Source: a bacterium (GTDB taxonomy: Bacteria > Pseudomonadota > Gammaproteobacteria > GCA-002705445 > GCA-002716945). Taken from it: a DNA stretch of 44,842 bases. Both the position numbers and the translations under genes were made by a program. The stretch spans positions 1 through 44,842 of the forward strand of contig JAPOHH010000008.1 in NCBI GenBank assembly GCA_029979505.1. The letters are read 5' to 3'. The notes beneath the pieces were generated by a model. The model searched no databases. It worked only from the letters and a program-made list of their open reading frames with translations, and was not told the DNA's origin. Positions 4,797 to 35,416 of this stretch are shown in pieces (the first letter of the stretch is position 1; the number at the start of each line of letters is the position of its first letter).

Positions 4797-5168
4797 ATGT
4801 TTAAATTAATTGTAAAAAAGGAATTTTCATCTGCTCATATTCTTCATGGACATCCTGGCGATTGTAAAAGGATGCACGGGCATAACTGGCTTGTAGAGGC
4901 TGAAGTTAAAGGTAATAATATCAATAAAATTGGTATGGTAATTGATTTTAAAGATATAAAAAATAAGTTACAAGAGATTATAAAAAAATTAGATCATCAA
5001 TACCTTAATGATATTGAGCCATTTACAAATGAAAATCCTACTGCAGAAAATATTTCGAAATATATTTATAAAGAGCTATCAAAAAATATTAATACTGATA
5101 ATATTAAGGTCAGTGAAATTAAACTGTGGGAAACAAATAACTCAGCAGTAGTATATACCGAGAATTAG
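4797..5168 (+). CDS. queD: 6-carboxytetrahydropterin synthase (QueD)
   Basis: QueD converts dihydroneopterin triphosphate to 6-carboxytetrahydropterin for queuosine. This 123-residue protein has the complete active site: zinc ligands His14, His27 and His29 (SSAH and MHGHN), catalytic Cys23, the LDHQYLND segment supplying the catalytic Asp/His, the PTAENIS motif, and Glu in KLWETNNSA. It starts 5 bases after dxs and ends exactly where folE2 begins, so a GTP cyclohydrolase and the next pterin enzyme are translationally adjacent. Compare the degenerate paralogue at 24998-25390. Confidence 0.93.
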   Translation: MFKLIVKKEFSSAHILHGHPGDCKRMHGHNWLVEAEVKGNNINKIGMVIDFKDIKNKLQEIIKKLDHQYLNDIEPFTNENPTAENISKYIYKELSKNINTDNIKVSEIKLWETNNSAVVYTEN

Positions 5169-5978
5169 ATGTCAACATCAAAATCAAAATTAGAAATAAC
5201 AAACTTACCTGATACCCAAGGACAAGCTGATACAAGAAATATGCCAATCAACAAGGTAGGTATAAAAGATATACTACACCCTATGGTTATTAAACAAAGA
5301 TCTGGTAAACAACAATCAACTGTTGCAAATTTTAATATGTATGTGAATTTACCTCATGATTTCAAAGGTACCCACATGTCTAGATTTGTACACATATTAA
5401 ATAATCATGAAGAACAAATTACGGTTGATTCATTTAAGAAAATGATTGATGAGATGTTAGTACTATTAGAAGCTGATTCAGGGCATATTGAAATGAAATT
5501 TCCATACTTTATTAACAAAACGGCACCAGTATCTAAAGTTCAGAGTTTGCTTGATTATACGGTTTCCTTAATTGGAGAAATTGAGGATGGTAAATCCAAG
5601 CTCAAAGTTAAAGTTATGGTACCTGTAACAAGTTTATGTCCATGTTCGAAAAAAATATCAGATTACGGAGCGCATAACCAAAGATCCCATGTGACAATCA
5701 CAGCTACAATTAAAGATTTTATATGGATTGAAGAAATTATTGATATTGTAGAAAAGGAAGCTTCATCAGAACTTTATGGCTTATTGAAAAGACCCGATGA
5801 GAAATATGTTACCGAAAGAGCGTATGATAATCCTAAATTTGTAGAGGATATGGTAAGAGACATAGCTGTCCATTTTAATAATGATGATAGAGTTACAGAA
5901 TATGTAGTTGAGTCAGAAAACTTTGAGTCAATACATAATCATTCTGCGTATGCTCAGATTCACAAAATCAAAGATTGA
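5169..5978 (+). CDS. folE2: GTP cyclohydrolase FolE2 (type IB)
   Basis: FolE2 makes 7,8-dihydroneopterin triphosphate from GTP, the entry to folate and to queuosine through QueD. The 269-residue length is typical. Supporting segments are the N-terminal [15 protein letters not shown] region, HMSRFVHIL, and the signature [20 protein letters not shown] carrying the active-site cysteine. Type IB enzymes use several metals and often replace zinc-dependent FolE under zinc limitation; here it could be the only or an auxiliary enzyme. It follows queD without a gap and converges on bamC two bases away. Confidence 0.96.
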
Positions 5979-21515: not shown

Positions 21516-22292
21516 ATGTCTAAAATTAGTATAACAAAAAAAACAGCTTGGTCACTTATTTTAAAAATTAATAAATCTATTCCATGTGTTAGACGTAATA
21601 TCATTAATATCAATGAAAAGATTGCTAAAACTGAAATACAATTATCATATGATATAAAAAATAATTTGATAAAAGAGTCTAATATTCTTTTTAATGAGGA
21701 TACTGAGAACTTATTAAGAATTTTTTTTCCAATTATTTTTAACTATAAAAAGAATCAATACATTGCTCATATTGCTCAATCTCTTGATGGATATATTGCG
21801 ACTGAGAGTGGAGAGTCTAGATATATAAGCGGGAAAAAAAACTTGGAACATATACACATGCTTAGAGCTATATCTGACTTTATAATAGTAGGGGCAAATA
21901 CTTATATTGAAGATAATCCAAAGCTTACAACAAGGTTAGTAAAAGGAGATAGTCCAAAGATTTTTATATTCGACCCTAAAGGAATTATTAAGGAAAAAGA
22001 TTTTCAGTCAAATTCGACTCATTTGTCAGGTAATCATAAATCATTTCTGCAATTAATTAAATCAAGAAAAAGATCAATAATTTATATTGAGGGTGGTGGT
22101 AAAACGATATCTTATTTTATTAAAAAAAATCTATTAGATAGACTTCATGTGTGTTTATGTCCAATCATAATGGGAGGTGGCAGAGCCTCTTTCATTGAAG
22201 AAAGATATATTAAATTATCAGACACAAAATCTTATAAACCTAATCATTATAAAATGGGTGAGGATATATTATTTGATATCAATATTAACTAG
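21516..22292 (+). CDS. RibD C-terminal-domain reductase-like protein
   Basis: A 258-residue protein. Residues about 80-255 are a RibD_C/DHFR-like reductase: AQSLDGYIATESGESRYISG, a dinucleotide-binding FIIVGANTYIEDNPKLTTR, then IIYIEGGGKTISYFI and CPIIMGGGRASF. RibD_C enzymes reduce the ribosyl side chain of a pyrimidine in riboflavin synthesis with NADPH. The deaminase domain is absent; instead there is an about 80-residue N-terminal extension of unknown fold. The gene converges on the UPF0104 gene with an 8-base overlap, placing it in the PTPS/dehydrogenase/glycosyltransferase locus rather than with rib genes. Substrate unknown. Confidence 0.8.
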   Translation: MSKISITKKTAWSLILKINKSIPCVRRNIININEKIAKTEIQLSYDIKNNLIKESNILFNEDTENLLRIFFPIIFNYKKNQYIAHIAQSLDGYIATESGESRYISGKKNLEHIHMLRAISDFIIVGANTYIEDNPKLTTRLVKGDSPKIFIFDPKGIIKEKDFQSNSTHLSGNHKSFLQLIKSRKRSIIYIEGGGKTISYFIKKNLLDRLHVCLCPIIMGGGRASFIEERYIKLSDTKSYKPNHYKMGEDILFDININ

Positions 22293-23154
22293 GATTCTTA
22301 TTAACTAAGAAATACATACCTGGAGTTGAACATAACAAATTAGTCAAACCGTAAACTATTGCTACTGTTACACTTGCAGATACCGATAATCCAAGCAAAA
22401 ATGAAACAGCTAGCGCTGCTGTCTCTCTAACTCCCCATCCTCCAATACTAACAGGTAGAGTCATTGAAAATAAAACGAGTGGTGCGAAAACAAAAAAACT
22501 GACTATATCAATATCAAGGTCTAATGCCAAGGCACAAATAATATAAGTAGTTATATATGTAACAACAATTATTAATGACAGAAAAAAATGTTTATAAAAT
22601 AGTTTACCGCTAAAAAAAAACTTAAAGTTATTTATATAATTGTTTTTATTATAATACCTAAAGACAAGTTTTATTAATGATAAGATAATTATAATCAAAG
22701 CAAGAGTATACAATAAAGCTTCATATTTTTTATTCAATAAAAAAAGTAAAGCTAATGACATAATAAAAGTAACAACTAATGAAACTTGACCAGATAAACG
22801 TTCAAATATTACTGATTGCAAAGATTTTAAGAAGTTGCCTTTTTCGTCATTGACTTTAATATTTATTGTTCGATAAATATCTCCAAGAATTCCTGTAGGG
22901 AGAATATTATTTAAAAATCCTGAAATATAGTAAAATTTGATTGCGTCAGAGTATGCTATCTTGAAATTGGTATTTGAAGCTATAAAATACCATCTCCATG
23001 CTGACAGCATGTATTGGAATATACTTAGTATAACTACTATAGGTAAGTAGATTAAGTTTACATTTTGTATTAAAACATGGATATCGGCGCCATAGCTATA
23101 AAGTAAATAACTCATTAAAAAAATGGAAATAATATATTTAGTCAGTCTCTTCAC
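22285..23154 (-). CDS. UPF0104 / LPG synthase transmembrane-domain protein
   Basis: A 289-residue protein with about eight helices and the family motif NNILPTGILGDIYR (about 80-95), VIFERLSGQVSL and SIGGWGVRETAALAVSFLLG. It corresponds to the membrane (flippase-like) domain of lysylphosphatidylglycerol synthases, without the cytosolic aminoacyl-transferase domain. Related proteins handle lipid-linked intermediates. It overlaps the methyltransferase gene by 4 bases, at the end of a five-gene minus-strand run. Confidence 0.82.
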   Translation of the reverse strand: MKRLTKYIISIFLMSYLLYSYGADIHVLIQNVNLIYLPIVVILSIFQYMLSAWRWYFIASNTNFKIAYSDAIKFYYISGFLNNILPTGILGDIYRTINIKVNDEKGNFLKSLQSVIFERLSGQVSLVVTFIMSLALLFLLNKKYEALLYTLALIIIILSLIKLVFRYYNKNNYINNFKFFFSGKLFYKHFFLSLIIVVTYITTYIICALALDLDIDIVSFFVFAPLVLFSMTLPVSIGGWGVRETAALAVSFLLGLSVSASVTVAIVYGLTNLLCSTPGMYFLVNKNPS

Positions 23155-24023
23155 TTACGTTTAATCAAAATATCATTATGACCAACATATAAACTGATTT
23201 TTTTATTGTCAATTTCATATTTTTTTTGTTCATACCACAACTTTAGTATTTTTCTATCTATCCCTTCCATATGAAATAAAGATTTTTTAGTATCTAAAAT
23301 ATATCTGTTTAGAAATATTTTATCCATTTCAGAATGATTTTTTATTTGCCAAGGAGATTCTTTAATTTTAATAGATAAATCTCTACTCTTTGCTAACTTT
23401 GAAATATATTCAATCGACTTGCAGCCCAATGCTAAACCAAAACCTTTGTCAGATCTTTGATGATTATTAAAGAAAGATAATATATATTTATCCATTGTGT
23501 TAGATGGTGTCCACTTAACCTTACCATTGAAACAAAGCGAAAAATATAATGCACAATCACTTTTTGCTATCTTTAATATATTATTAATAGTAGATTTAGA
23601 CATAAGATCTAAAACAGCAGAAAAACTTATCAGTTGGTATTTGTCATATCCTTTATTATATTTATTACAATCATTTTTTATAATTTTTATATTAGAGATT
23701 ATCTCTTTATTATTCTTAATCAATAAATCAAGATTGTTTGTATTAGATTGAATTTTGAGATGTGGTTCTATAACAGATTTAATATTTCTTTTTATTGATT
23801 TTAGAAGCTTAATATCATAATCGATTAAAACACATTTTTTATAATTGATATTATTCTTAATAGACCAAACTAAAAAACTTCCGGAGCCACAATATAAATC
23901 TAAAAGATTTATATTTTCAGTTGTAGGTAATTTATCTAGGTATTCAAATAATAAAGGAGAACGGGCTTGCATATCATAGACTTGCCTCATTTCAATCCAT
24001 GATGAACTGAATTTATTATCCAT
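23151..24023 (-). CDS. Class I SAM-dependent methyltransferase
   Basis: A 290-residue protein with SAM motif I LLDLYCGSGSFLVW (about 40-53), an acidic loop CVLIDYDIKLLKSI, and a later LISFSAVLDLMSK strand corresponding to motif IV/V. The C terminus is specific to this family. Such enzymes methylate small molecules; the substrate is unknown. It overlaps the glycosyltransferase gene by 8 bases and the UPF0104 gene by 4, so it is firmly part of the locus. Confidence 0.75.
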   Translation of the reverse strand: MDNKFSSSWIEMRQVYDMQARSPLLFEYLDKLPTTENINLLDLYCGSGSFLVWSIKNNINYKKCVLIDYDIKLLKSIKRNIKSVIEPHLKIQSNTNNLDLLIKNNKEIISNIKIIKNDCNKYNKGYDKYQLISFSAVLDLMSKSTINNILKIAKSDCALYFSLCFNGKVKWTPSNTMDKYILSFFNNHQRSDKGFGLALGCKSIEYISKLAKSRDLSIKIKESPWQIKNHSEMDKIFLNRYILDTKKSLFHMEGIDRKILKLWYEQKKYEIDNKKISLYVGHNDILIKRK

Positions 24024-24996
24024 ATAATACTCTTTTAAAAGAATTTCCTACCTCTTCCCATGTTTTTAATTTAATATTTTTTTTTATGGGTGAAGATTCA
24101 ACAATAGCAGATACAATAGATTTTACATTTCTCAAATTGACATATTTCCTTCTATAACCAACCAAGTTCTCTCTAAAAACAGGTATGTCTGAAACGACTA
24201 GCGGTAGGCCCAAAGCTGCGCATTCAATATTTGCCATACCATATCCCTCATACTTGCTAAGACATAAATATACTTTAGCCTTTTTGAGAAAATCAATTAA
24301 AACATTTATATCATCTATACAGTCAAGAAACTTAACTCTATCATTTAATTCATACTCATCAACTAAAGAGGAAAGATATGAGAAATATGAATTTCTTTTA
24401 TCATTTTTACCTATAATCGTAAGAGTCCATTTGTCATCCATATGATTAAGTGTTTCAATGCAAGTCTCTAGATTTTTTCTAGGTATAATCGAGCCAGTGG
24501 TAATGATATTATAACCATTTGTGTCATTATTTTTTTTATGCTTCCAAAAAATATCGTCAACGCCTGGGCTTATAACTTTTATGTCTATTTCTTTGTTTAA
24601 TATTTTTTTTATTACTCTTTTCATAGTCTTACTCACAGTAATTATTTGGCTAGCAGAAGAGAAAATCTGTTTTTCTTTTAGTTTAATTAAAATATTGCCA
24701 TATTGATGATTTTCGTACGATACAGGATGATGAATAAGTAAAATTATTCTATATTTTTTAGACAATATTTTTGATAAGTAGCTGATGTTGGATGCAATCA
24801 AACCGTCAATTATGACCGTAGACCTATTAGGTATAGCTTTTAAATTAAAGAATATTTTTTCTAATCTCATTCTAGCTTGTGGTATTGGGATATTTATAAT
24901 CTTACATCTATTTGAATTTAGATACTTAAGGACATTTATATCGTATTTGTTACCGCCAGAAATCGAAGTAAGATCTGGAGTAATGAAATAGTTCAC
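24016..24996 (-). CDS. GT4-family glycosyltransferase
   Basis: A 326-residue GT-B fold enzyme. The donor-binding half has VISPGVDDIFW, TGSIIPRKNLETCIETL, and the EGYGMANIECAALGLPLVVS segment with the EX7E-type acidic residues. The start codon is GTG at 24996. Retaining GT4 enzymes transfer sugar from a nucleotide sugar, often to a lipid or small-molecule acceptor. One base separates it from the PTPS-like gene. Acceptor and sugar are unknown. Confidence 0.85.
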   Translation of the reverse strand: MNYFITPDLTSISGGNKYDINVLKYLNSNRCKIINIPIPQARMRLEKIFFNLKAIPNRSTVIIDGLIASNISYLSKILSKKYRIILLIHHPVSYENHQYGNILIKLKEKQIFSSASQIITVSKTMKRVIKKILNKEIDIKVISPGVDDIFWKHKKNNDTNGYNIITTGSIIPRKNLETCIETLNHMDDKWTLTIIGKNDKRNSYFSYLSSLVDEYELNDRVKFLDCIDDINVLIDFLKKAKVYLCLSKYEGYGMANIECAALGLPLVVSDIPVFRENLVGYRRKYVNLRNVKSIVSAIVESSPIKKNIKLKTWEEVGNSFKRVLYG

Positions 24997-24997
24997 T

Positions 24998-25390
24998 TTA
25001 AATCTTTTTTAAATATGAAGCTGATGCTACATGATTTTCTTTTAAATTAATTTTTATCGAATGTATTTTATTTAATGGGTAATCGATATTATCTAATTCA
25101 TAATAAATATCATCTGCAAATTGTTTGGCCATAAATTCTGTAGTAGTAATTTGACCATCGAATTTATCTATATCATCTAGATTTTTGTAATTATATTTTT
25201 CTATGACTTGCTTTAGAATTTTAGTAATGAGACCAATATCTATAATTACATTTTTTTCAATAAGAGATAGTGATGAAATAGTAAGTTCAATAATATAGGT
25301 TACCCCATGAAGATTTTTAGCAGGACCAAAAAATTCATCCTTTAAGCTGTGAGCAATAAAACAATAATCTTTAATTTTTAATTCATACAT
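24998..25390 (-). CDS. PTPS/QueD-fold protein with degenerate active site
   Basis: A 130-residue protein with the QueD/PTPS T-fold. It keeps FIAHSL (His14) and LHG (His28), the TTTEFMA motif and the C-terminal ILKEN-like Glu (INLKENHVA). However, the catalytic Cys four residues before the HGH motif is Ala24, the third zinc-ligand His of HGHN is Val30, and the catalytic Asp-His of LDHQYLN is replaced in YNYKNLD. Compare the intact queD at 4797-5168. It is therefore unlikely to be a second QueD. From memory, homologues with FGPAxxLHG occur beside similar dehydrogenases in alphaproteobacteria. Zero gap to the dehydrogenase gene. Confidence 0.8.
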   Translation of the reverse strand: MYELKIKDYCFIAHSLKDEFFGPAKNLHGVTYIIELTISSLSLIEKNVIIDIGLITKILKQVIEKYNYKNLDDIDKFDGQITTTEFMAKQFADDIYYELDNIDYPLNKIHSIKINLKENHVASASYLKKI

Positions 25391-26359
25391 TTAATATTTC
25401 ACAACCTTGCATAAGCCTTTAGGATTTCCTTTATTAAAAAACAAAGGAAGATTCTCCAAAGATAACTCTTTTTTATCAATCAGAATATCTAATTTATCAT
25501 CTTTTAGCATTTTTAATGCTAAAAATCTTCTATCAATATTATTCCATTTTTTCGATTTATACGATGTGATATTTCCAACTTGAGAAAATATTAATTTTAA
25601 TCGTCTGGAGAAACAATTCTCTCCCATTTTAATCTTGGCTTGCTGTTTACCGTACCAACTCAAAATACATATTTTCGTCTCAAGTGGCGATTTATCAATT
25701 ATTTCATTTAGAACGCCCACTGATCCTGAGCATTCGTAGATAATATCTGGATTTTTAATATCGCACAAATCTTTTTTGAAAGTGATGCCAAACGCATCAC
25801 AAAGTTTCTTTTTTTTAGAATCTATATCTATTACGGTCACATTAACACCAAATGTATTATGCAGTACATATGCCATTAGTAACCCAACTACCCCTGCACC
25901 TATAACATAGGTTTTATCACCTATTGAAGGTTTTGAATCCCACATGGCATTAATTGCGGTTTCCATATTCGCAGTAAGTAATGCTCTCTTGATAGGTATA
26001 TCATTTGGTATAAGCGTTATTAATGATGAGTTTATTTTATAAATAGATTGATGTGGAAACATAGTATAAACATATTTATTAATAAGCTTTTTTGGTCCAT
26101 CAATAATTTTTCCTACACTTAAATATCCATATTTTACAGCGCCACTGAATTCTCCCACTTGATGTGGTGCTCTCATAAATTTATATTGATTTTTCGGAAC
26201 TTGTGAATCAAAAACTATCTTTTCGGTACCATAACTAACCCCAGAGTATATAGCTTCAATTAAAACTTCATCATCTGTGAGCTCAAAATTAATCGATTCT
26301 TTTTTTACTACTCCTTTTTTATTAGATACCCAAAATGATTGTGTTGTATAATGTCTCAT
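25391..26359 (-). CDS. Zinc-type alcohol dehydrogenase relative (MDR superfamily)
   Basis: A 322-residue protein of the medium-chain dehydrogenase fold. It has SGVSYGTEKIVF near residue 36, VKYGYLSVGKII, and the Rossmann motif YVIGAGVVGLLMAYVL (about 150-166) followed by acidic VIDIDSKK for NAD. The usual catalytic and structural Cys ligands of classical alcohol dehydrogenases are not evident at the N terminus, so a zinc-independent or altered mechanism is possible. Its ATG is two bases from the divergent CDP-alcohol transferase ATG. Likely oxidises or reduces an intermediate of the locus. Confidence 0.78.
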   Translation of the reverse strand: MRHYTTQSFWVSNKKGVVKKESINFELTDDEVLIEAIYSGVSYGTEKIVFDSQVPKNQYKFMRAPHQVGEFSGAVKYGYLSVGKIIDGPKKLINKYVYTMFPHQSIYKINSSLITLIPNDIPIKRALLTANMETAINAMWDSKPSIGDKTYVIGAGVVGLLMAYVLHNTFGVNVTVIDIDSKKKKLCDAFGITFKKDLCDIKNPDIIYECSGSVGVLNEIIDKSPLETKICILSWYGKQQAKIKMGENCFSRRLKLIFSQVGNITSYKSKKWNNIDRRFLALKMLKDDKLDILIDKKELSLENLPLFFNKGNPKGLCKVVKY

Positions 26360-26361
26360 GA

Positions 26362-27069
26362 ATGAATTATAGCAAATTTACATTATGCACGTATACAGGG
26401 ATTCAGATAATTGTAATTAATCTACTATTACTTCTTTTGTTAATAATATCTACAACTAGTAAAGAGTTGCTAGCATCTATCATATATAATTCTGTAGTAA
26501 TATATTTTCTTATATTTGGTTTATTCATTTTCTTTTTTAGAAAAATGGATATCGCTCTAAATATACCAAACGCAATTACTAATTTCCGTTTGATTATTAA
26601 TACCTTCATATTGGTGATTGTTTTAAATCTAATACATTTTGATATCAGTTTATTATTAATACTCTGTTTAATAAGTTTACTGTTAGATGGCTTAGATGGA
26701 TTTATATCAAGGCTTCTTAATCAAAATACAAAATTTGGTGAAGTTTTTGATCAAGAGGTTGATAATTTTTTGATACTAATTCTGAGTTTATCTCTAGTTT
26801 ATAATTATAATTATAGCTTATTGATTTTAACTATAGCTTTCTATAGATATATATTCTTACTCTTAATTTCATATAATTATATTAGTAACAGGAAGCTTCC
26901 TAAATCTTTTTTAAGGAAATCGGCATGTGTTTTTATCATACTTTCTCTGCTGTCCTGTAATTATTTTAATAATAATTTAGTTATAAATTTATTTTATTTG
27001 AGTGTAATATTAATAACATATTCTTTTACAAAGGATATTGTATGGTTATATAGGAGAAAAAATGTTTAA
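26362..27069 (+). CDS. CDP-alcohol phosphatidyltransferase family protein
   Basis: A 235-residue integral membrane protein with about six helices and the catalytic motif (DG-x2-AR-x8-G-x3-D-x3-D type) at about 110-135: LDGLDGFISR, then GEVFDQEVDN. The Ala of the AR pair is Ser. Enzymes of this family transfer a phosphoalcohol from a CDP-linked donor to another alcohol, usually making phospholipids or lipid-linked head groups. It is divergent from the dehydrogenase gene and overlaps yceI by 8 bases. Acceptor unknown. Confidence 0.82.
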   Translation: MNYSKFTLCTYTGIQIIVINLLLLLLLIISTTSKELLASIIYNSVVIYFLIFGLFIFFFRKMDIALNIPNAITNFRLIINTFILVIVLNLIHFDISLLLILCLISLLLDGLDGFISRLLNQNTKFGEVFDQEVDNFLILILSLSLVYNYNYSLLILTIAFYRYIFLLLISYNYISNRKLPKSFLRKSACVFIILSLLSCNYFNNNLVINLFYLSVILITYSFTKDIVWLYRRKNV

Positions 27070-27637
27070 AAAAATTATCATATTATTATTAGTGCCAATA
27101 TTCGTATTCGGTTCAGATGAGAAATATGTAATTGATAAGACGCACTTTTCTATCGGATTTCTTGTTGAGCATGTCGGATACGCTAAAACTCTAGGCATGT
27201 TTAAAGAGATAGATGGGAGCTATACACATGATCTAGTTAATAATAAAATTAATGATATAAAAATTATTATTAATACGAATAGCGTATTCACAAACCATGA
27301 CAAAAGAGATCAACACCTCAAAAGTCCTGATTTTCTAGATGTGGAAAAATATCCAGAAATGATTTTTGTAGCAAATAATATTGACATTAATAAAAAGGAA
27401 ACTTTGATAAATGGTTCTTTGACGTTGTTGGGGGTTACCAAACCATTAATACTGACAGGAAGAATTAATAAAATTGGTAAATATCCATTCGGTGGACTTA
27501 TTAAACCCTACGTTATGGGCATCTCAGCTAGGGGTGTAATAAAAAGGTCAGACCATGGCATGATGTATGCAATAAAAGATAACCTTGTTGGTGATAATAT
27601 AGAGCTCATTATTGAATTTGAAGCAAGAAGACAATAA
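27062..27637 (+). CDS. YceI-family periplasmic protein
   Basis: A 191-residue protein with a signal peptide (MFKKIIILLLVPIFVFG) and the YceI lipocalin-like pattern: YVIDKTHFSIGFLVEHVGYA, a HDKRDQHLKSPDFLDVEKYP segment, and GSLTLLGVTKPLIL. The fold binds isoprenoid quinones or other amphiphiles. ATG 27062 follows AGGAG at the right distance and replaces the upstream in-frame start at 27038. It overlaps the preceding CDP-alcohol transferase gene, so the two are linked transcriptionally. Confidence 0.9.
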   Translation: MFKKIIILLLVPIFVFGSDEKYVIDKTHFSIGFLVEHVGYAKTLGMFKEIDGSYTHDLVNNKINDIKIIINTNSVFTNHDKRDQHLKSPDFLDVEKYPEMIFVANNIDINKKETLINGSLTLLGVTKPLILTGRINKIGKYPFGGLIKPYVMGISARGVIKRSDHGMMYAIKDNLVGDNIELIIEFEARRQ

Positions 27638-34963: not shown

Positions 34964-35416
34964 CTAGTGGTGTGAGTGATGGTTACTTTTTTTAGCATTC
35001 ATCTCTTCTTTAGATATAAATCCGTCATTATTCAAATCTAGTGAATCAAATTTTTTATTAGGCATCTTAAGAAATTCTGAATTGCTAATCTTGCCATCTG
35101 AATTTGTATCTAGTTTTTCAAAAATTTTCCCTTTATTACCTTTACCCTTCATACCCATCATGGAACAACCATTTTGGTTTTTATTACCACACATCATATT
35201 CTTTTTCTTATTTTTAGTATTCATTGGCATGTCATCATTATTATCATGGCCATGTCTATTATTCATAGAACATGCGCCAGATTCAGCGCCTGATTTACAA
35301 CAGCATGACATACTCTTCATAGACATTTTCCCTTGATGATTATGGCTCATAGATGCACAGCCTATTAATAAAGCGCTTGAGAAAATAAATACTGCCAACC
35401 TATTTAATATTTTCAT
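34964..35416 (-). CDS. Met/Cys/His-rich EF-hand lipoprotein
   Basis: A 150-residue lipoprotein with lipobox LLIGC (Cys20). Residues about 25-95 are crowded with metal-binding residues: SMSCCCKSGAESGACSM, then a His/Asp stretch, MMCGNKNQNGCSMMGM. Two EF-hand loops follow (DTNSDGKISNSEF and DLNNDGFISKEEM), and the tail is HHSHH. The arrangement suggests a periplasmic or outer-membrane metal buffer, possibly for copper or nickel in the soft-ligand part and calcium in the EF hands. Function inferred from composition. Confidence 0.75.
   Translation of the reverse strand: MKILNRLAVFIFSSALLIGCASMSHNHQGKMSMKSMSCCCKSGAESGACSMNNRHGHDNNDDMPMNTKNKKKNMMCGNKNQNGCSMMGMKGKGNKGKIFEKLDTNSDGKISNSEFLKMPNKKFDSLDLNNDGFISKEEMNAKKSNHHSHH

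Follow-up and report, generated by a model that had tools for sequence, protein, structure and literature searches.

Background

The Streptomyces coelicolor protein SCO6650 (PDB 3D7J) was reportedly found in 2008 to have no zinc, no catalytic triad and no PTPS activity while retaining a pterin-like pocket, and we know of no function for it. Within COG0720 the subfamily PTPS-IV has been delineated as AGeNNT cluster-node 62, a set of 561 sequences in which the signature FGPAQ is 'preferentially' present, and the excerpts of that paper used here name PF00925 and PF01872 as its gene neighbors (PMC5445326); they gloss PF00925 as GTP cyclohydrolase I, while its Pfam name is GTP cyclohydrolase II. 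Neither these excerpts nor those of PMC5041015 contain a demonstrated bacterial function for PTPS-IV, and the excerpts of a pterin review (PMC13259868) make no mention of PTPS. A further precedent is provided by BrbF, a creatininase-family protein that is a proven formamidase on a GTP-derived intermediate, and whose distant homologs, in the portion of the report used here, did not complement a riboflavin formamidase mutant (PMC9478397).

Here we describe a PTPS-IV protein encoded in a 44,842-nucleotide stretch of gammaproteobacterial DNA (hereafter the window), together with its gene neighborhood. PTPS-IV proteins, of which our genome scan gave at least 560 copies, some of them in SAR11-type ocean bacteria, are without the residues for the QueD reaction, and the cassette around them offers concrete partner genes and hence candidate substrates, which makes the function testable.

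Identification of a PTPS-IV protein

The protein in question (Table 1) matches the Pfam PTPS profile with an e-value of 5.5e-18 (65.5 bits, cut-off 22.4), and scores 45.4 bits against the NCBI QueD equivalog TIGR03367, under the cut-off of 89.25. It was aligned (alignment A1) with the canonical QueD encoded in the same window and two other QueD-type sequences. In this alignment Ala24 takes the place of the catalytic Cys, the HGH motif becomes HGV with Val30 in place of the third zinc His, and the Asp-His of the proton relay is replaced by Asn67-Tyr68 (DH to NY) within the stretch YNYKNLD, while His14, His28, T82-T84-E85 and Glu118 are retained. The preliminary description of this DNA had claimed precisely these three replacements, along with retention of the two histidines, a TTTE motif and a C-terminal Glu, and all of them hold against the window's own QueD.

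The window protein has neither the CxxxHGH motif and Asp-His relay of QueD/PTPS-I (it has AKNLHGV and NY), nor the CxxxxxHGH motif of PTPS-II (BH4 synthesis), as both Cys and HGH are missing, nor the ExxHGH motif of PTPS-III (folate), as HGH is missing. It carries an FGPAQ-type signature in the form FGPAK, with K as the last letter, and the RibD_C (PF01872) neighbor expected of PTPS-IV is present in the window. The other expected neighbor, PF00925, occurs in 44 of the 87 loci described below and not in the window's cluster, but this is a statistic of the family's neighborhoods and is not required of each member. The window protein is an intact member of the already published and widespread PTPS-IV subfamily, as delineated in the excerpts of PMC5445326, and the subfamily itself is therefore not new.

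The predicted model of the window protein (pLDDT 96.4) aligned with SCO6650 over 130 residues with a Z-score of 21.4, an rmsd of 1.2 A and 37% identity, as against Z-scores of about 14-16 with QueD/PTPS structures. A phmmer comparison of the window protein with SCO6650 gave an e-value of 1.4e-23, and from the common signature we infer that SCO6650 would itself be a PTPS-IV protein.

Conservation and selection in the PTPS-IV family

A scan of genome contigs with two sequence patterns recovered at least 565 confirmed relatives, 80 of which were kept, and plasmid records supplied 21 further relatives, the 20 that were listed showing identities of 30-41%. Across 105 family sequences, Ala24 and His28 are each found in all 105, although the scan counts at these two positions are partly selected because one of the patterns required FG[PKE]A..HG. 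Residue 30, which lies outside both patterns, is Ala in 97, Val in five, Thr in three and His in none of the 105; position 68 has no His in any sequence, and Asp occupies position 67 in just four. A protein search free of motif selection, covering 96 related genomes, gave matches with e-values of 1.7e-24 or better in 19, among them the window's own genome; A24 is present in all 19, and after a gap come proteins of the QueD type or other canonical PTPS, with e-values of 4.4e-7 at best.

Besides these positions, E85 and E118 are found in 105 of 105 sequences and H14 in 104 of 104 (one row being partial). The full set of residues that are invariant wherever the position is present comprises H14, S15, F21, G22, H28, G29, T31, D51, N70, L71, D72, T84, E85, E118 and A122. 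Residue 25, the last of the signature, is Q in 87 sequences, K in 15 and A in three, and residue 120 is His in 87, Asn in 14 and Pro in four. The Ala/Val changes seen in the window protein are thus conserved among FGPA-x-x-LHG homologs, which form one coherent family, and no homolog retaining Cys and HGH at these positions was found among the 105 sequences.

In a quick tree all 105 PTPS-IV rows fell on one side of a branch with an SH-aLRT support of 99, opposite 12 QueD-side rows. The dN/dS was 0.08 for the nearest pair and, where dS was computable, 0.07-0.18 for pairs within the genus; on these ratios, PTPS-IV is under purifying selection.

The PTPS-IV gene cassette

Table 1. PTPS-IV cassette of the window and the queD used for comparison
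Coordinates	Strand	Product	Context	Evidence
4797..5168	+	Canonical queD	Comparison sequence from the same genome	Cys, HGH and DH intact
21516..22292	+	RibD_C reductase-domain protein		PF01872 1.2e-26, residues 83-241
22285..23154	-	LPG_synthase_TM flippase-like membrane protein		PF03706 8.3e-32
23151..24023	-	Class I SAM methyltransferase-like protein		Weak profile matches, under cut-offs; cluster profiles
24016..24996	-	GT4-type glycosyltransferase	Directly downstream of PTPS-IV	Profile matches
24998..25390	-	PTPS-IV family protein		130 aa, ATG start
25391..26359	-	MDR-superfamily dehydrogenase, weakly BchC-like	Directly upstream of PTPS-IV	Profile matches
26362..27069	+	CDP-alcohol phosphatidyltransferase	Divergent from PTPS operon	PF01066 7.9e-20
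27038..27637	+	YceI-family protein	After CDP-alcohol transferase	Profile match

The cassette of the window spans positions 21516-27637 (Table 1). RibD_C was the sole Pfam match in the reductase-domain protein, with no deaminase domain matched, and relatives of the MDR dehydrogenase are annotated as 'zinc-binding alcohol dehydrogenase'. The ATG codons of the MDR and CDP-alcohol transferase genes (26359/26362) diverge and are only 2 bp apart, so that each promoter would have to be embedded in the coding sequence of the opposite gene, unless the true starts are further in. Elsewhere in the window, the ORF at 7-495, which we take to be ribosomal protein S16-like, ends in about five near-identical AAPAEDTATE repeats, and the ORF at 34964-35416 is a small Cys/Met/His-rich lipoprotein-like protein with C-terminal DxDxD stretches that are EF-hand-like by eye.

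We compared 87 loci, namely the window, six plasmid loci and 80 scan loci (L155 and L156 are not included), and alignment A3 covers 53 of the scan loci together with the window. Genes were counted above 60 bits with cluster HMMs built from the same loci, and because contig ends truncate many of the loci the resulting counts are lower bounds: MDR 85, GT4 80, RibD_C 61, methyltransferase 60, CDP-alcohol transferase 53, flippase 45, RibA (GTP cyclohydrolase II) 44, creatininase 38, YceI 18, sulfatase-like 18 and FkbM 12. A separate phmmer search placed cytochrome b561 in seven loci; at 18 and seven of 87, YceI and cytochrome b561 were too few to be accepted as fixed partners. Pfam searches with representatives of the cluster proteins confirmed PF00925, PF02633 and PF01872.

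The core of the cassette has a conserved order, with the MDR gene as the same-strand upstream neighbor of PTPS-IV in 82 of the 87 loci and GT4 as its same-strand downstream neighbor in 79. The recurrent order is MDR, PTPS-IV, GT4, methyltransferase and flippase, with YceI and the CDP-alcohol transferase facing away at one end, and, beyond the flippase, RibD_C in reverse, RibA forward, and creatininase and FkbM in reverse. In Palleronia, ribA, MDR, PTPS, methyltransferase and RibD are co-directional, and ribA, CDP-alcohol transferase, MDR, PTPS, GT4, methyltransferase and RibD sit together in Rhizobium SL42. The cassette is conserved across five phyla, the hosts belonging by record titles and tree labels to Pseudomonadota, Actinomycetota, Bacteroidota, Gemmatimonadota and Acidobacteriota. 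Departures from the common plan include many Streptomyces/Amycolatopsis loci, in which the cluster profile search found no RibD_C, and a Streptomyces NBC_00028 plasmid, where the PTPS-IV copy stands alone.

A compact variant, which we term SAR11-type, was defined by the cluster HMMs at 14 loci (L041-L050, L052, L053, L061, L064), SAR11 record titles being attached to L053 and L061 only. All 14 contain MDR, PTPS-IV, GT4 and creatininase, and 12 contain RibA, RibD_C and methyltransferase; profile searches found no CDP-alcohol transferase or flippase near any of them. A gene that by eye is histidine-phosphatase-like precedes the compact core in nine loci.

Part of this cluster is already known, since the excerpts of the AGeNNT paper name PF00925 and PF01872 as neighbors of PTPS-IV (PMC5445326). 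The literature that we searched, from which subscription papers mostly fell outside, yielded no description of the whole cassette, and it is this conserved setting that the present analysis adds. In the annotated plasmid records, Palleronia included, PTPS-IV proteins are labeled 6-carboxytetrahydropterin (queuosine) synthase, which is, judging from the missing Cys and HGH, a systematic misannotation.

Evidence for a proposed GTP-derived precursor

All 44 cluster RibA proteins have the zinc motif C-x-[TS]-[GA]-D...C-x-C. The residue equivalent to Tyr105 of the E. coli enzyme is Tyr in 33, Met in seven, His in three and Leu in one; 35 of these calls were made by pattern, those of Met included, and nine by eye, including those of His and Leu. 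The Streptomyces GTP cyclohydrolase II SCO6655, which has Met at this position, does not proceed beyond the formylated intermediate. A creatininase gene is close by in 10 of the 11 loci with non-Tyr RibA (L062, L076, L083, L093, L094, L096, L097, L100, L108, L111, L112), the exception being L083, which reaches its contig end 2.2 kb past the PTPS gene. Among the 33 Tyr-type loci, creatininase is present in 23, of which 12 are closely similar SAR11-type loci, and is absent from 10. We did not accept this association as proof that a formamidase is needed, because the non-Tyr proteins are all actinobacterial while the Tyr class is mixed; it is consistent with such a need. From the zinc motif, the Tyr105 pattern, the creatininase genes and the precedent of BrbF (PMC9478397, in the portion used here), we therefore infer that the entry compound of the cassette is a GTP-derived diaminopyrimidine and that the ligand of PTPS-IV is pterin- or pyrimidine-like.

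The window's own lineage does not readily fit this scheme. Neither GTP cyclohydrolase II nor creatininase occurs in the cluster of the window or its family, and among the 25 genomes searched creatininase is absent from all 16 of that family. The sole PF00925 match over cut-off in the family is a RibB protein with an MDDENREN motif, whose GTP cyclohydrolase II domain is without the zinc and GRGIG motifs in seven of the seven read (L140-L144, L146, L147; L145 is not included), one from a genome about 99% and one from a genome about 100% complete. The window's genome (G000) has ribD, ribE, the RibB-type fusion and ribH (G000:C8:139272-142110; L130:7252-10561). It and its relatives thus have riboflavin synthesis genes with no recognizable GTP cyclohydrolase II, the zinc Cys and GRGIG being missing in the seven genomes, and a search of 10 genomes for GCH III as a substitute gave no match over cut-off. 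Because GTP cyclohydrolase II and creatininase are missing, a route opening with the former is not directly transferable to the window organism, and either another enzyme opens GTP in this lineage or the cassette is fed from another pterin source. One such source could be what we take to be a FolE2-like protein encoded beside queD (5169-5978).

PF00925 and lumazine synthase are missing from three genomes of the genus (G005, G006, G007), of which G005 and G007 keep the cassette. In G000 the rib operon is flanked by nrdR and thiL, and these two genes are missing from all three as well (save a weak thiL match of 9.0e-4 in G007), so the rib operon, nrdR and thiL seem to be absent as a block. Since nrdR and thiL are lost too, we favor an assembly gap common to these genomes over riboflavin auxotrophy, which we rejected as evidence against a substrate derived through GTP cyclohydrolase II.

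Functional implications

The preliminary description had suggested that selective loss around a conserved pocket points to a new reaction or to a binding role on a pterin-like ligand. This suggestion gains support and is the best reading of the putative function, because PTPS-IV is a coherent family under purifying selection in which the T-fold of the predicted model and the pterin-anchor glutamates persist. More specifically, we consider it probable (roughly 0.6) that PTPS-IV is an enzyme of the T-fold that has lost the zinc-dependent PTPS/QueD chemistry, has kept the pocket and acts in a GTP-derived pathway. The retained and conserved residues are H14, H28, S15, T31, D51, N70-L71-D72, T84-E85 and E118, and the pocket would still anchor a 2-amino-4-oxo-pyrimidine or pterin ring.

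The conserved cluster probably makes a small molecule from GTP, and we propose the following reaction, order of steps and end product. In the fullest cassettes, GTP cyclohydrolase II and the creatininase-family formamidase would yield 2,5-diamino-6-(ribosylamino)pyrimidinone phosphate, which the RibD_C protein would reduce. PTPS-IV and the MDR dehydrogenase might then carry out a zinc-free rearrangement or closure of the ring system or side chain, and GT4 and the methyltransferase would decorate the product. Where present, the CDP-alcohol transferase and flippase would link it to lipid and export it, as probably happens in many bacteria. The least certain part is the PTPS-IV step itself, for which our guess, by analogy, is a metal-free isomerization or cyclization with His14 and His28 as acid-base residues; dihydroneopterin aldolases and epimerases, which have the same fold, work without zinc.

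A fuller picture of the product is doubtful. It might be a glycosylated and methylated pteridine or ribityl-pyrimidine cofactor, attached to a phospholipid and flipped to the outer leaflet in gammaproteobacteria, many alphaproteobacteria and actinobacteria, with the YceI proteins and cytochrome b561 of some clusters handling it there as a redox carrier, while the seven-gene SAR11-type core would make a soluble form; PTPS-IV would then be the committed ring-forming step.

The loss of the nucleophile and all proton-relay residues from a retained T-fold, with the ring-anchoring Glu85 and Glu118 invariant, could also describe a non-catalytic pterin or pyrimidine binder, that is, a carrier, chaperone or sensor that passes a labile intermediate between the cassette enzymes. 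We regard this as rather unlikely, as ring binding does not obviously need the invariant polar residues H14, S15, H28, T31, D51, N70 and D72, and the conserved position between MDR and GT4 is enzyme-like. That PTPS-IV is still a metallo-lyase, with a site rebuilt from His14, His28 and another residue such as His120, is improbable: the first two are invariant and His120 prevails in the family, but its replacement by Asn or Pro in 18 of the 105 sequences and the reported absence of zinc from the SCO6650 structure speak against it. A service in F420 synthesis, for which an unpublished role of PTPS-IV in archaea is stated in the excerpts of PMC5041015, is very improbable and already weakened for the window's lineage, where CofH exceeds the curated cut-off in only two of 25 relatives (G012 and G032, and not G000) and 11 of the 12 PTPS-IV-bearing genomes among those 25 are without it. 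Finally, the loss of catalytic residues in a single sequence might have marked a decaying queD paralog, an explanation that we dismiss because the losses are identical throughout one clade (Ala24 in every sequence, residue 30 never His), the dN/dS is low and the cassette is conserved.

Comparison with known systems

The window protein can be compared with several described systems. With SCO6650 it shares the T-fold. With PTPS-IV as set out in the excerpts of PMC5445326 it shares the FGPA signature, the missing Cys and HGH, and a RibD_C neighbor, but its signature reads FGPAK, with the K25 found in 15 of 105 sequences, and GTP cyclohydrolase II is missing from its cluster. QueD (PTPS-I), including that of the window, has in common with it the T-fold, two of the three zinc histidines and the pterin-anchor Glu pair, whereas the window protein is without the Cys, third His and Asp-His, is 23% identical and falls short of the QueD equivalog threshold. 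As for BrbF and the archaeal-like early riboflavin route, in the portion of PMC9478397 used here, many PTPS-IV loci resemble it in that a member of the creatininase family accompanies GTP cyclohydrolase II and RibD_C, a likeness of the cluster enzymes by family only, while the window's family differs in having no creatininase.
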